Part shown: piece after piece, positions 44 to 6,042 of the stretch | How the letters are laid out: the number at the start of each line of letters is the position of its first letter | Numbering within the stretch: position 1 is the stretch's first letter | DNA from: Chloroflexota bacterium | GTDB taxonomy: Bacteria > Chloroflexota > Limnocylindria > Limnocylindrales > CSP1-4 | Direction: 5' to 3' | Length of the DNA stretch: 7,863 nucleotides | Assembly (NCBI GenBank): GCA_021812735.1 | Contig: JAKAMV010000453.1 | Span: forward strand, 1 to 7,863 | The notes under the pieces: model-generated | Told to the model about the DNA's origin: nothing | The model's database searches: none | What the model saw: the letters and a program-made list of their open reading frames with translations, nothing else | Made by a program: the position numbers and the translations under genes

Positions 44-216
44 CCGCCGACGGCGCCTCCTTGGTCCTGTTCGTCCTCGGCCTCGCCCTGCTCGCGGTCG
101 GCGCGTTCGCGACTGCGGCCTTCGTCGGGTTCGCGGTCGCGGTCCTGCTCGGCCTCGCCGAGAGCGACGAGCGGCGCGATGCGAGGCGCCGCAACCAGGC
201 GAGGCGTGTGCGATGA
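40..216 (+). CDS. Small membrane protein, 58 aa
   Basis: The 58-residue product is unrecognised. Residues 8-41 are almost wholly hydrophobic (Leu, Val, Ala, Phe, Gly). They could form one long helix or two short helices, with a possible turn near residue 25. An acidic patch (ESDE) and a strongly basic tail (RRDARRRNQARRVR) follow, so by the positive-inside rule the C-terminus is probably cytoplasmic. Both ends show four-base ATGA overlaps, with the upstream frame at 40-43 and the HNH gene at 213-216, so it sits inside a translationally coupled operon. No strong Shine-Dalgarno precedes the ATG, which fits coupling. Small membrane proteins of mobile elements include holin-like and superinfection-exclusion proteins, but nothing here allows a choice. 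Confidence 0.65.
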   Translation: MTADGASLVLFVLGLALLAVGAFATAAFVGFAVAVLLGLAESDERRDARRRNQARRVR

Positions 217-704
217 GCGTCCGCGACATCGTCACCCTGCACCTGCCGATGGAGATGGGCGCGGCTGGCCGGATCATGAAGGCCGTCGCCCGCGACCGCG
301 CCAACCGCGAGCGGTGGGCAGTGAGGGACCGCGAGCGACGCCTCCGCGACCCCGGTGCCGCCCGCGAGCGGGCGCGGCGCTGGCGCCTGTCCCATCCCGA
401 CCGGGCGCGCCAGCACCGCCGGCGGTGGCTCGACGACGTGCCGCTCCGCGAGGCGGCGCAGCGCTGCGCCATGACCGCCAACCGCCGCGCCCGCATGTAC
501 GGCGTCGACGGCCAGATCGGGTACGAGGCCGTGCTCGAGGTCTGGCGGCTCCAGCCTGTTTGCGTCGACTGCGGCGAGGGCCGCGGGCTCGACCACGTCA
601 TCCCGCTGTCGCGGGGCGGCCCGAACACGAGCGGCAACCTGGCCAACCGCTGCCGGTCCTGCAACTCCGTCAAGGGCGTCCGGATGCCGGAGGTGCCGGC
701 GTGA
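213..704 (+). CDS. HNH endonuclease
   Basis: This 163-aa protein has a C-terminal HNH/McrA-type zinc-dependent nuclease fold. A CVDC pair (C117, C120) and a second RCRSC pair (C147, C150) would hold the structural zinc. D127-H128 in LDHVIPLS carries the catalytic His, and N138 and N142 sit in the NTSGNL segment; the protein ends in the usual NSVKG stretch. Residues about 25-75 are very rich in Arg, Glu and Trp and are probably helical. This N-terminal extension is frequent in phage HNH proteins and likely contacts DNA. The ATG at 213 overlaps the previous stop and has GAGG at 201-204, 8 nt upstream. Phage HNH proteins nick or cut DNA, often near packaging or replication sites, or home as free-standing nucleases. 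No large terminase or portal gene is present here to support a packaging role. The family is sure and the biological target unknown. Confidence 0.93.
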   Translation: MSVRDIVTLHLPMEMGAAGRIMKAVARDRANRERWAVRDRERRLRDPGAARERARRWRLSHPDRARQHRRRWLDDVPLREAAQRCAMTANRRARMYGVDGQIGYEAVLEVWRLQPVCVDCGEGRGLDHVIPLSRGGPNTSGNLANRCRSCNSVKGVRMPEVPA

Positions 705-928: not shown

Positions 929-1480
929 ATGCCCTGGGGACGGCTCGACGACGGCCTCTACGACCACCCGAAGGTGGAGCAGCTCCCGCGGCGGCTGCGC
1001 AACTCCTGCGTCGGCCTCTGGGCCCGCGCCATCAGCTGGTCCAACCGCTACCTCACGGACGGCCGCGTGACCATGGAGCGCCTGGCCAAGCTCGACGGCA
1101 GCCAGGCCGAGGTGGACGCCCTGGTGTGCGTCGGCATGCTCGAGCGGGACGGCGACGGCGTGCTGATCCACGACTTCGCCGAGTACAACGAGACGGCCGA
1201 CGCATGGCGCGCGCGGCGCGGCCGGATGCACGAGCTCGCGAAGCGCGGCGGTCGGGCGTCAGGCGAAGCGCGGCGCTCAACCGCAGCGGTCAAGCGTGAC
1301 GGTGAACCGCAGCGGTCAAGCGCAGCGGTCAACCGCACCGCGAAGCGGCGTGGGTTGAACTCCGAATCCGAATCCGAAGAGGAATCCGAACGGAGGGTTA
1401 ACGAGACCGTAGAGGTCACTCCGGGCGCGCGCCCTGACGGCCTCGTCGACCCTGTGGCAGACGAGGCGCTGCCGTGGTGA
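929..1480 (+). CDS. Phage-type replication initiator (replisome organizer) with embedded origin repeats
   Basis: This 183-aa protein is built like phage replisome organizers of the lambda O type. Residues 1-100 (MPWGRLDDGLYDHPKV..., CVGLWARAISWSN, LTDGRVTMERLAKL, GMLERDGDGVLIHDFAEYN) match the winged-helix N-terminal domain I know from many actinobacterial prophages; this is recognition from memory. Residues about 101-143 are a basic linker, 145-154 are a Ser-Glu repeat, and the tail is acidic and ends in ALPW. Such proteins bind repeats at the element's origin and recruit the host helicase. The linker-coding DNA holds 13-bp tandem repeats and a low-GC hexamer patch, the likely binding sites and melting region. 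The ATG at 929 follows the previous TAG directly, with GGAGG/GGGAGG at 915-923. A plain DNA-binding regulator is the main alternative. Confidence 0.75.
   Translation: MPWGRLDDGLYDHPKVEQLPRRLRNSCVGLWARAISWSNRYLTDGRVTMERLAKLDGSQAEVDALVCVGMLERDGDGVLIHDFAEYNETADAWRARRGRMHELAKRGGRASGEARRSTAAVKRDGEPQRSSAAVNRTAKRRGLNSESESEEESERRVNETVEVTPGARPDGLVDPVADEALPW
1269..1333 (+). repeat. Tandem 13-bp iteron-like repeats
   Basis: Five consecutive 13-bp units start at 1269, 1282, 1295, 1308 and 1321. The 12-mer CGCAGCGGTCAA is exact at 1282, 1308 and 1321, differs at two positions at 1269 and at four positions at 1295. A related unit stands apart at 1244. Each unit holds the short inverted motif CCGC-N-GCGG or a close variant. 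The exact copies are read in different frames, as AAVK or AAVN at 1282 and 1321 but as PQRSS at 1308. Protein repetition therefore cannot explain the array, and a DNA-binding role is likely. The position inside the initiator gene matches origin iterons. Confidence 0.8.
1358..1402 (+). other. Low-GC TCCGAA hexamer patch, candidate DNA unwinding element
   Basis: TCCGAA occurs at 1361, 1367, 1373 and 1385, with a degenerate unit GAGGAA at 1379. The patch runs on to a GTTAAC palindrome at 1397-1402. By hand count the stretch is about half A+T, clearly richer in A+T than its surroundings. It encodes a Ser-Glu repeat with GAA glutamate codons, although GAG dominates elsewhere in the window. It starts about 25 bp after the iteron array. 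Lambda-type origins have the same order of iterons followed by an A+T-rich melting region, but melting itself is inferred. Confidence 0.5.
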
Positions 1481-2016
1481 CCTACAGCGCCGAGGACTAC
1501 CGGGCGGCACGGCAGGCCTGGCTCGACGGCGAGTTCGGCGAGGCCTGGGACCCGTTCCGGGCGGCGGCCGCGGAGCGCGGCTTCGTCTACCCGCCGACAG
1601 GGTCGCGGTGGGACAGCTGGGAGGACGACCGGCCGAGCCAGCGCGCCGTCCTGTGGCGCGCCGTCGAGGAGACGCCGCAGCTGCTGCTCGAGTGCATCGG
1701 CCGGAGCCGCTCGTGGTCGGAGGTGATCCGGATCCTCCTGGCCCGCCGCGACGCCTGGCGCGAGGTCACGGCCCGCCGAGACGAGGAGGAGGCTCGGCGC
1801 CGCGAGCGTGGCCCGTCGCCCGACGAGGCCGCCGCCCTGCTCCCGCAGCTCGTCGCCGCGGCGACGGCTCACCGCCAGGCACAGCTCGAGGCGGCGGCGG
1901 CGGCCGCCCGCGAGGTGGTCCGCCTGGCGAACGGGGTCGGCCTCGACGACGACGAGTGGGGGCAGGCGCTCACCACCCTCGAGGGCCTCCTGCTCGCCCT
2001 GGACGGGGGCGCGTAA
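1474..2016 (+). CDS. Unrecognised protein after the initiator, 180 aa, C-terminal coiled coil
   Basis: I do not recognise this 180-aa protein. The N-terminal half is aromatic-rich and ordered (YRAARQAWLDGEF, GFVYPPTGSRWDSWEDD, PSQRAVLWRAVEET, ECIGRSRSWSEVIRILLARRDAW). Residues about 90-165 are charged and Ala-rich and probably form a long coiled coil, and the tail is acidic. It directly follows the initiator, the slot where lambda has the helicase loader P. However, no Walker A or B motif is visible, so it is not an AAA+ loader of the DnaC type, and a loader role would rest on position alone. GTG at 1474 has GAGG at 1463-1466, 7 nt upstream. GTG at 1477, which forms a GTGA overlap with the previous stop, is an equally possible start. 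Confidence 0.75.
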   Translation: MVTYSAEDYRAARQAWLDGEFGEAWDPFRAAAAERGFVYPPTGSRWDSWEDDRPSQRAVLWRAVEETPQLLLECIGRSRSWSEVIRILLARRDAWREVTARRDEEEARRRERGPSPDEAAALLPQLVAAATAHRQAQLEAAAAAAREVVRLANGVGLDDDEWGQALTTLEGLLLALDGGA

Positions 2017-4815: not shown

Positions 4816-5949
4816 ATGGCAGCCGAGGTCGAGCGGCGGCGGAGGGGAACCGGGTCGGTCTACCCGGAGGGCGACGGCTGGCGCTACGCCCTGCCGCGTC
4901 GGGCCCGCGGCCGCGGCCTCGAGGGCCGGCGGCGCTGCCCGACCCGATCCCAGGCCGAGGCGGCGCTCGAGGGCGCGCTCGACGCGCTGGAGCGGCGTGG
5001 CGACCCCGGGGGCCAGACGCTCGACGACTGGCTCGCCGCGTGGCTGGCCTCGGTCCGGAGCAAGGTGCGCGCCTCGACGTGGGCGAGCTACGAGGGCCAC
5101 GCCCGGCTGCACATCTCGCCGCTGCTCGGCGGCATCCCCCTGCGCGAGCTCCGCGCCGCCGACGTGATGCGGCTCGAGGCCGCGCTGCTGGCGTCCCGGT
5201 CGCACCGGGGGAAGCGCAAGACCGCCCCGACGATCAGCCCCAACACCGCGGCGCGCGTCCTGACCACGCTGCGCATCGCCCTCGCGGCCGCCGTCCGGGC
5301 CGAGGCCGTCCCGCACAACGTCGCCGCCCTCACCGGCAGGCTGCCCCGGGCCGAGCGCGACGAGGTCGAGGCGATGACCCCCGCGACCGCCGCCCTGTAC
5401 CGCGAGGCGTTCCGGGAGACGTGGCTGGGCCCGCTGGTCCGCCTGCTGCTCGGGACGGGCCTGCGCCTCGGCGAGGCGCTCTCGCTCGACCAGGGCGACG
5501 TCGGCCCGGCCGAGGCGTGGGTCCGGATCCGCCGCTCCAAGACGCGGGTCAGGGCGGTCCCGGTCGCCCGGGGGGACGCCCGCCAGGCGATCCGCGACGC
5601 GCTGGCCGAGTGCCCGGTCCGGGGAGCGCGCGAGCCGCTCTTCTGGTCGCCCCGGCGCAACCTGCGCGGCCGCGGGCAGCGCGGCCGGCTCGCCGTGGCC
5701 AGCGTGTCCCATGCCGTCCCCGAGCTCGCCGAGGCGGCCGGGCTCCCGCGGATCACGCCGCACGGCTTCCGCCACGGCGCCGCGACGATCATGGTCGCCG
5801 GCGGCGCCCACATGCGCCTCGTCGCGGCCCAGCTGGGCCACGCCAACCCGGCCCTCACGGCCCGCGTCTACGCCCACGTCGTGCCCGAGGCGCAGGCGGA
5901 GGCGGCCGACCTGCTCGGCTCCGCGGAGGCCTCCGCGGAGCGAGATTGA
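4816..5949 (+). CDS. int: Tyrosine recombinase, phage-type integrase
   Basis: This 377-aa protein is a full-length tyrosine integrase. Residues about 8-60 form the arm-binding N-terminal domain (GTGSVYPEGDGWRYALP). Residues about 68-175 are the SAM-like core-binding domain (TLDDWLAAWLASV..., STWASYEGHARLHI). The catalytic domain shows R217 in TGLRLGEALSL, K242 in RRSKTRV, H316-x-x-R319 in TPHGFRH, H342 in AAQLGHANP and the nucleophile Y352 in ARVYAHVVPE, so the catalytic set is complete. It should integrate and, with the preceding excisionase, excise the element. The tRNA-His-like core lies 43-50 bp past its stop, as expected for attP or attR beside int. The ATG at 4816 is the first start after the in-frame TAG of xis. 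No ribosome site precedes it. Confidence 0.97.
   Translation: MAAEVERRRRGTGSVYPEGDGWRYALPRRARGRGLEGRRRCPTRSQAEAALEGALDALERRGDPGGQTLDDWLAAWLASVRSKVRASTWASYEGHARLHISPLLGGIPLRELRAADVMRLEAALLASRSHRGKRKTAPTISPNTAARVLTTLRIALAAAVRAEAVPHNVAALTGRLPRAERDEVEAMTPATAALYREAFRETWLGPLVRLLLGTGLRLGEALSLDQGDVGPAEAWVRIRRSKTRVRAVPVARGDARQAIRDALAECPVRGAREPLFWSPRRNLRGRGQRGRLAVASVSHAVPELAEAAGLPRITPHGFRHGAATIMVAGGAHMRLVAAQLGHANPALTARVYAHVVPEAQAEAADLLGSAEASAERD
5918..5941. repeat. Perfect 24-bp palindrome at the end of int
   Basis: The half-site GCTCCGCGGAGG is followed at once by its exact reverse complement, with no spacer. It contains two copies of the self-complementary 10-mer CTCCGCGGAG, spaced 12 bp apart. It lies within the last codons of int. 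As RNA it could form a hairpin; as DNA it could bind a dimeric protein near the attachment site. Confidence 0.7.
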
Positions 5950-5966: not shown

Positions 5967-5982
5967 GCAGGCCGTCCTGCCG
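5965..5982 (+). terminator. Terminator-like hairpin after int
   Basis: CGGCAGG (5965-5971) pairs fully with CCTGCCG (5976-5982) around a four-base loop. It starts 16 bp after the int stop. No T tract follows, which is common for high-GC actinobacterial terminators, so termination is plausible but unproven. It would close the long operon before the attachment site. Confidence 0.5.
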
Positions 5983-5992
5983 CACGTCGGCA

Positions 5993-6042
5993 TCGGATTG
6001 TGGCTCCGAAGGTCGCGGGTTCGAGCCCCGCAGGCCACCCCA
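5993..6042 (+). other. Attachment site: 3' fragment of tRNA-His
   Basis: This stretch reads as the 3' part of a tRNA. An anticodon stem TCGGA/TCCGA encloses the loop TTGTGGC with anticodon GTG (6000-6002, His). The variable loop, a T arm GCGGG-TTCGAGC-CCCGC, the acceptor strand AGGCCAC, a C discriminator and CCA follow. The loop and CCACCCCA end match bacterial tRNA-His as I know it. The 5' acceptor strand (it would read GTGGCCT) and D arm are absent upstream. This is what integration into a tRNA gene leaves at the end distal to the intact copy, and int lies beside it. It is therefore attR/attL, or attP if the molecule is circular. Confidence 0.85.

Follow-up and report, generated by a model that had tools for sequence, protein, structure and literature searches.

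In-gene iteron origins, i.e., origins in which the repeats bound by a replication initiator lie inside the gene that encodes it, are already known. In phage lambda, as set out in the relevant passages of PMC7466680, four iterons in the form of 19-bp imperfect inverted repeats are located in the middle of O, together with an AT-rich tract. In SPP1, the portion of PMC6316719 that deals with oriL places it in gene 38, where direct repeats and an AT-rich unwinding element are found, and states a need for gp38, a helicase loader and a DnaB-type helicase. RepA-like initiators of mycobacteriophages that form extrachromosomal prophages (Miko, Rachaly and Jeeves) have a predicted N-terminal helix-turn-helix, and their origin is presumed to lie within or just upstream of repA, although the section concerned reports no repeats in the region examined near that gene (PMC7157519). 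Here, we describe an array of 13-bp iterons within a predicted replication initiator gene of a Chloroflexota bacterium (assembly GCA_021812735.1); the window, i.e., the whole stretch of DNA analysed, comprises 7,863 nucleotides (nt), positions 1-7,863 of contig JAKAMV010000453.1. The array very probably serves as the initiator-binding segment of the origin from which an integrated phage-like element replicates, and it is embedded in the element's own initiator gene; this estimate includes the mechanism proposed below.

A direct scan located exact copies of CGCAGCGGTCAA at 1282, 1308 and 1321, on the + strand only, and degenerate copies at 1269 (CGCGGCGCTCAA) and 1295 (CGTGACGGTGAA), all in steps of 13 bp. 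Together with Tandem Repeats Finder, which returned 1266-1337 at period 13 (5.5 copies) and also at period 26, as well as 1241-1332 at period 39, this confirmed the repeats as listed in the initial annotation of the window. The same lags, in the order 26, 13 and 39, gave the three top values across the whole window. When the codons of the gene were shuffled synonymously, the lag-13 match was reached by only 1 of 2000 shuffles (52-nt window), and the best 52-nt match at any lag of 5-40, which was 41 at lag 26, by 4 of 2000; with a 36-nt window and lags of 9-30, none of 200 shuffles reached the observed match. The half-site TSAASCG recurs at 1277, 1290, 1303, 1316 and 1329, i.e., in exact 13-bp steps; it is to be noted that this pattern was chosen post hoc, when the array had already been seen. 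Palindromes also occur within the array copies, namely ACCGCAGCGGT at 1280 and 1306, and GCGGTCAACCGC at 1325, and because the copies contain them, the array combines direct with inverted repetition. Between nt 270 and 480 of the gene, six palindromes were counted against 2.9 expected, and four of the six fall in the array.

By sequence, the protein encoded around the array is a predicted member of the phage replication initiation proteins. It matched PHROG 2447 (replication initiation protein) with an E of 1.5e-26 over residues 1-169, corresponding to the N-terminal half of the profile, and PHROG 3926 (replication initiation) with an E of 6.3e-19 over residues 1-174. The earlier proposal that the host gene encodes a replication initiator is supported by these matches and by the helicase annotated just downstream of the initiator in 5 of 23 named phage regions (Schmidt, MenE, TZGordon, Shoya and Stark); the in-gene origins already known from lambda and SPP1 lend it further support. 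Pfam contains an O-family model, and a Pfam scan of the protein at E 1 retrieved only DUF4778 (E 0.5, below the cut-off) and no O-family profile. At E <=0.001, there were 145 homologous proteins, the window's own included, and the homologue details given here are drawn from the 120 listed among them. AlphaFold2 modeling gave a block-mean pLDDT (predicted local distance difference test) of at least 89 for residues 11-110 and lower values beyond; the confident domain was read as winged-helix-like, with a predicted helix at residues 90-124 and then a putatively disordered linker. Structure matches in BFVD comprised proteins of Gordonia, Mycobacterium, Arthrobacter and Propionibacterium phages and ‘replisome organizer’ entries, and Foldseek against the PDB gave no match at E 0.001. 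HNH endonuclease domains were observed inside the initiator chain itself in P0033, P0085 and P0087 (by Pfam) and in locus L022 (by eye); in P0033, P0087 and L022 the domain was seen by eye to stand soon after the winged-helix domain, where others carry the basic helix and the array. Coordinates of all features are collected in Table 1.

Table 1. Features of the window and the evidence on which each was assigned.
Feature	Coordinates	Strand	Basis
Iteron array, period 13 bp, at least 5 units	1266..1337	+	Tandem Repeats Finder; shuffle, motif-chain and half-site tests
Five TSAASCG half-sites	1277..1335	+	Post hoc pattern
Array palindromes (1267-1277, 1280-1290, 1306-1316, 1325-1336)	1267..1336	.	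Palindrome count
Predicted replication initiator gene, 183 amino acids: N-terminal domain of winged-helix-like type, then a long basic helix and an unstructured linker	929..1480	+	PHROG, homologues, AlphaFold2
Coding part of putative winged-helix-like domain, residues 1-87	929..1189	+	Fold named by reading of secondary structure
Coding part of predicted long basic helix, residues 90-124, type MHELAKRGG	1196..1300	+	AlphaFold2 model, helix end of lower confidence
Tandem TCCGAA tract, read as SESESE, adjoining the iterons	1359..1390	+	Tandem Repeats Finder (1361-1390, period 6, 5 copies)
AT-rich dip, GC 0.55-0.58 in 60-bp windows, most neighbours 0.68-0.83	1340..1419	.	
Separate downstream open reading frame, GTG start overlapping initiator stop (GTGA); in-frame GTG at 1474 also possible	1477..2016	+	BLASTP
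GGGTTAACGAGACC, possible second DNA element	1395..1408	+	Tails of 8 of 120 listed homologues
HNH gene	213-704		Pfam scan
Integrase gene	4816-5949		Pfam and PHROG scans
tRNA-like 3' portion right after the integrase	5979-6031		Rfam, 27.1 bits (cut-off 29)

Relatives of the initiator were collected from viral contigs in five fetches, in which 80 of 111, 80 of 136, 80 of 191, 80 of 352 and 80 of 236 loci were kept, and 19 further loci were taken from genome contigs, with others coming from named phage records. The first set consisted of 86 nonredundant genes out of 100 (14 near-duplicates dropped), and the second of 35 new long genes kept from 80 loci; near-duplicates were removed from the third set (23 of 91) and the fourth (46 of 160), followed by 6 and 4 genes, respectively, that were too short. 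Genes long enough for the linker tests numbered 71 of 86 for lag, 73 of 86 for palindromes, 82 of 94 for half-sites and 179 of 180 for the tract. The control open reading frames (ORFs) of the palindrome and tract tests were taken mechanically from the same loci as the longest ones present and are not verified genes. The window's protein matched 168 phage records, and some part of the Murp initiator matched 612 of 50,697 by tblastn, some of the listed matches covering the C-terminal part only. A match was found in 1 of 72,556 plasmid records and, when 396 genomes of a single phylum were searched twice, in 7 and 8 genomes, the loci of which enter no count. When viral contigs were scanned for close relatives with only the window protein as query, 8 stretches were returned, none of them confirmed.

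In these relatives, the linker repeatedly carried arrays of its own. Among the 71 genes of the lag test, the excess over synonymous shuffles (p <=0.01) was concentrated at lags 10, 11 and 12 (16, 12 and 5 genes), with 5, 7 and 4 genes at lags 22, 23 and 24 and 2 at lag 13; elsewhere in the gene, the highest count was 7 genes at lag 11 for the N-terminal domain (86 genes) and 5 at lag 45 for the C-terminal part (52 genes). Lag 10 was set aside as an iteron spacing, being read as largely the (CCCGA)n tract described below, and 13 bp was set aside as the family period, as 11 and 12 dominate. A motif-chain search scored 8 of 84 genes at <=2/200 shuffles and 21 at <=10/200; it showed that the units differ among lineages, and that some, e.g., those of L044, run through all three reading frames. 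Palindromes with arms of at least 5 were far in excess in the 73 linkers (310 versus 117.5 expected), 63 of the genes being above expectation, whereas 244 control ORFs of the same loci had no excess (435 versus 440.5). The excess was sharpest at gene nt 360-405 (141 versus 26.6) and reached nt 540. Smaller excesses were seen outside the linker, at nt 180-225 (52 versus 24.3) and nt 675-720 (29 versus 16.0). Half-site arrays in both orientations were detected in 30 of 82 genes at <=15/300 shuffles, and in 23 at <=3/300. The distances between same-orientation half-sites, measured with four class motifs (n=252), were 11-13 bp in 140 cases and 22-24 bp in 93, and 98 of them were not divisible by three. 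Closest to the window, TCAASCG or close variants were found at 14-bp steps in L001 and L002, and weakly in L003. Both in the window and in many of its relatives, the repeats within the initiator gene thus go further than the encoded amino acids would require.

Arrays were also found outside the coding sequence. Short initiators in the collection numbered 20 when nonredundant, of which 19 could be scored, L331 having too little DNA after the gene; in 8 of the 19, a significant array was located near or after the stop codon, one of these (L182) being significant for the tract unit rather than for the half-site. In phages B22 and Dori, the next annotated genes start 190 and 277 nt past the stop, and the arrays lie mostly in this gap. 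In L099, a locus on a Sinomonas genome contig, the stop codon is followed by half-sites (GTTACGTAACGCGTTAGTAACG...), then by (CCCGA)n and then by an AT-rich stretch, and we consider it a putative noncoding origin of complete appearance. The initial annotation had argued that the repeat must be conserved as DNA; protein-preserving shuffles, half-site distances that are not multiples of a triplet, and the arrays near or after the stop of short relatives all support this. The same evidence bears on a purely protein-serving repeat, i.e., a low-complexity basic linker generated by slippage and without any role as DNA. Such linkers are indeed low in complexity and rich in repeats, and tandem duplication yields such arrays; nonetheless, the excess over synonymous shuffles, the use of all three frames, the arrays past the stop codon in some relatives, and the link with a protein segment encoded upstream (see below) together make this explanation very unlikely.

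Downstream of the iterons, a second tandem element was recognized. In the window it is a TCCGAA tract within the AT-rich dip, with a run of 13 that 2 of 100 synonymous shuffles reach, and we take it as the putative counterpart of the (CCCGA)n tract of relatives. Tandem tracts of 5 or 6 bp with a run of at least 12 were found in 100 of 179 linkers and in only 1 of 329 control ORFs, at a median gene position of 429. All 71 tracts with a run of at least 14 had more C than G on the coding strand, and over 132 genes, the mean GC content of the 30 nt after the tract was 10.7 points lower than that of the gene as a whole. The order of array, tract and AT-rich dip is shared by many relatives, and the AT-rich stretch adjacent to the iterons, as known from in-gene iteron origins, is present in the window. 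Among the closest relatives, the measure used here detects no tract in L001 or L003 and a weak one in L002 (run 8, 18 of 100 shuffles). We infer that the proline-rich linkers of the PDPTRPDP type are largely a readout of this DNA tract. In (CCCGA)n and (CCCAA)n tracts, e.g., those of L048 and L329, the opposite strand has GGG every 5 bases and may form putative G-quadruplexes.

Tract and dip are also informative with regard to an operator function, in which the initiator or another regulator would bind the array to control its own or downstream genes, and replication would start elsewhere. Palindromic sites one helical turn apart are typical of repressor operators, and it is general knowledge that initiators often autoregulate. 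However, an operator does not need the C-rich tract and AT-rich dip that follow the array in many relatives; in addition, the array is found roughly 340 nt into the gene rather than at a promoter, and a simple consensus scan of 900-2100, which misses other promoter types, revealed no sigma-70-like promoter. An operator is, in our estimate, unlikely.

When the arrays were sorted by half-site, the protein segment immediately following the winged-helix domain was seen to vary with the half-site. Classes were defined by regular expressions on this helix and checked against enriched 5-mers; e.g., -RM- goes with CGAAC/GTTCG, RQ..[WFY] with GTAAC, AG..GG with AAGCA/AGCAC, and RQR.[SH]R with GTGAC. 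Of two phages of Gordonia terrae, Murp has an array of the GTGAC type and Wocket one of the CGAAC type. The rules were frozen before the third and fourth sets were analysed, whereas the second set had already been seen when the expressions were fixed and had contributed to the definition of class C, which disqualifies it as a clean test. Helix and half-site agreed in 58 of 70 classified genes of the suggesting set (13 more unclassified) and in 22 of 26 of the second set (9 unclassified). With the frozen rules, agreement was found in 40 of 54 genes of the third set (8 unclassified; permuted mean 31.3, maximum 38) and in 56 of 68 genes of the fourth, which was more mixed (42 unclassified; permuted mean 17.9, maximum 34), these gene permutations ignoring kinship and overstating certainty. 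Outside class C, 45 of 54 genes of the fourth set agreed. When genes were collapsed to winged-helix clusters at 60% identity, agreement was 34 of 42 cells for the fourth set, 46 of 59 for the third and fourth, and 77 of 97 for all; at 50% identity the corresponding values were 11 of 12, 12 of 18 and 18 of 26. Several classes occur together in 10 of the 60% clusters; there, 110 of 134 genes agreed, compared with 71.7 on within-cluster shuffling (maximum 86). The rules were not uniformly successful, as those of classes B and F failed or were too broad (3 of 5 each in the fourth set, and 0 of 4 for class B in the third).

The possibility that the winged helix itself sets the half-site was set aside on the basis of partial Mantel tests of 180 genes, in which the basic region given the winged helix had an r of 0.200 (permuted maximum 0.076), against 0.069 (permuted maximum 0.068) for the winged helix given the basic region. 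In pairs among L031, L035, L042, L045, L060 and L082, the winged helices are about 85% identical, the helices differ, and the half-sites differ with them. The initial annotation had proposed to test whether homologues keep the 13-bp period while the unit changes with the N-terminal domain; this held overall, with the corrections that the period is usually 11-12 bp, and that the unit tracks the basic helix following the winged-helix domain more than the domain itself. Class C helices with a K shortly before RQ.RW were seen to carry AGACG/CGTCT and not GTAAC (L207, L262, L266, L267, L274, L276, L277, L294 and L318), which likely represents a finer level of the putative code, and EKLRKWR helix types (L358, L372, L373 and L411) carry GGTTA. 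The basic helix of the initiator may resemble that of bZIP proteins, in which case it would enter the major groove at each half-site; the support for such a putative reading is the helix–half-site correlation.

That the array sequence follows the helix of the initiator also bears on a partition (parS-like) or packaging site that merely happens to lie in the initiator gene. Repeat arrays do serve as centromeres as well, and phages with parABS occur among mycobacteriophages according to the pertinent part of PMC7157519. Against this, arrays stay with the initiator gene, whether coding or, in some relatives, noncoding, and no ParA or ParB match was obtained among the nine window ORFs scanned. A partition or packaging site is, accordingly, extremely improbable.

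The best reading of the array remains an in-gene origin like those in lambda O and SPP1 gene 38, which operate in a similar manner. The anatomy and the statistics described above are observed, whereas initiator binding, strand opening, helicase loading and origin activity are proposed. In the suggested mechanism, copies of the initiator would contact the half-sites, chiefly by way of the basic helix extending from the winged-helix domain. Bound initiators would align about one helical turn apart in both orientations and coat the array, and this assembly would strain the adjacent tract (1359-1390) and AT-rich stretch (1340-1419), which would open. Loading of the helicase would then fall to host proteins and to the partner domain that ORF 1477-2016 encodes. 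This ORF finds its counterpart in the C-terminal region of longer homologues (BLASTP E 8e-9 for P0062 and 6e-8 for P0038, with 4 further homologues), and because the C-terminal domain of one-chain homologues is thus a separate ORF, the initiator is split in the window, and the partner would act here as a separate polypeptide.

Several observations weigh against an in-gene origin of this kind. For the window alone, some tests gave only moderate support (the motif-chain score was reached by 6 of 200 shuffles, the half-site score by 10 of 300), and its 13-bp step is rare in the family (7 of 252 distances). Its MHELAKRGG helix type is shared among relatives only by L001-L003, the array of L003 being weak (16/300), and lies outside the rules, the window's own class by regular expression being a miss. 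N-terminal coding regions (86) have a small palindrome excess too (166 versus 134.4), and 11 of the 19 short initiators lack a significant array downstream. No helicase was found among the nine window ORFs scanned, and none was annotated just downstream in 18 of the 23 named phage regions, of which short stretches were viewed. As for the helix, 45 of the 54 genes of the third set belong to class C, and only 4 of the 9 others agree; the permutations, blind to kinship, count in the same direction, and pairwise profile similarities are modest (mean cosine 0.12-0.24).

With regard to the neighbourhood, an HNH gene, an integrase gene and a tRNA-like remnant give the window the appearance of a terminal region of an integrated element. 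The remnant is probably the attachment site, with an anticodon read by eye as GTG (His); ARAGORN found no tRNA, and Rfam a sub-threshold tRNA remnant only. Downstream of the tract, GGGTTAACGAGACC is a possible second DNA element of the origin, as suggested by the protein tails of homologues. It appears there in two frames, as RVNE(T/A) in P0001, P0002, P0027, P0031 and P0037, and as GLTR(P/S) in P0003, P0033 and P0036; these are its two open frames, the third containing a stop. A scan of L001-L099 that allowed up to 2 mismatches found no copy within their initiator genes, and in viral contigs GGGTTAACGAGACC was found in 47 stretches, below chance by a rough estimate.

To our knowledge, the origins of most Actinomycetota phages are unmapped; in this phage initiator family, a likely origin can be pointed out from the sequence. 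In the open-licence PMC literature, no paper was found on the arrays in this family, the C-rich tract, or the link between helix and half-site. What appears to be new is that, for the most part, the half-site can be matched to the basic helix adjoining the winged-helix domain, and this points to a recognition code that could be read. We lean toward a general view in which initiators of the actinophage type would read their origin via a compact helix code; helix and array, within about 150 bp of each other, could change together beside a nearly constant winged-helix domain and would form one exchangeable specificity cassette that could often be predicted from the protein; the C-rich pentamer tract would be a second general origin element, and PDPTRPDP-type linkers its readout and not a protein feature. 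If the helix–half-site link is true, these relatives offer a natural series of initiator–origin pairs in which specificity has been changed on a nearly constant scaffold, useful for understanding replicon compatibility, prophage and satellite interference, and module exchange.

In comparison with known systems, as far as the cited accounts describe them, the window resembles the lambda origin and its Stx-phage versions in having iterons in the middle of the initiator gene, with inverted character and an adjoining AT-rich stretch; being of the same kind does not make its protein a homologue of lambda O. It resembles SPP1 oriL in the direct repeats and AT-rich element inside the initiator gene, a likeness of origin layout, although SPP1 also has a second origin, oriR. 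By description, it can be likened to RepA of Miko, Rachaly and Jeeves, an actinophage initiator with a predicted N-terminal helix-turn-helix and a presumed origin in or near its gene. In contrast to the 19-bp inverted repeats of lambda, the family described here has half-sites of about 5-7 bp every 11-13 bp, many relatives carry a strand-biased 5- or 6-bp tract between the iterons and the AT-rich dip, and from one lineage to another the half-site varies in step with the helix.
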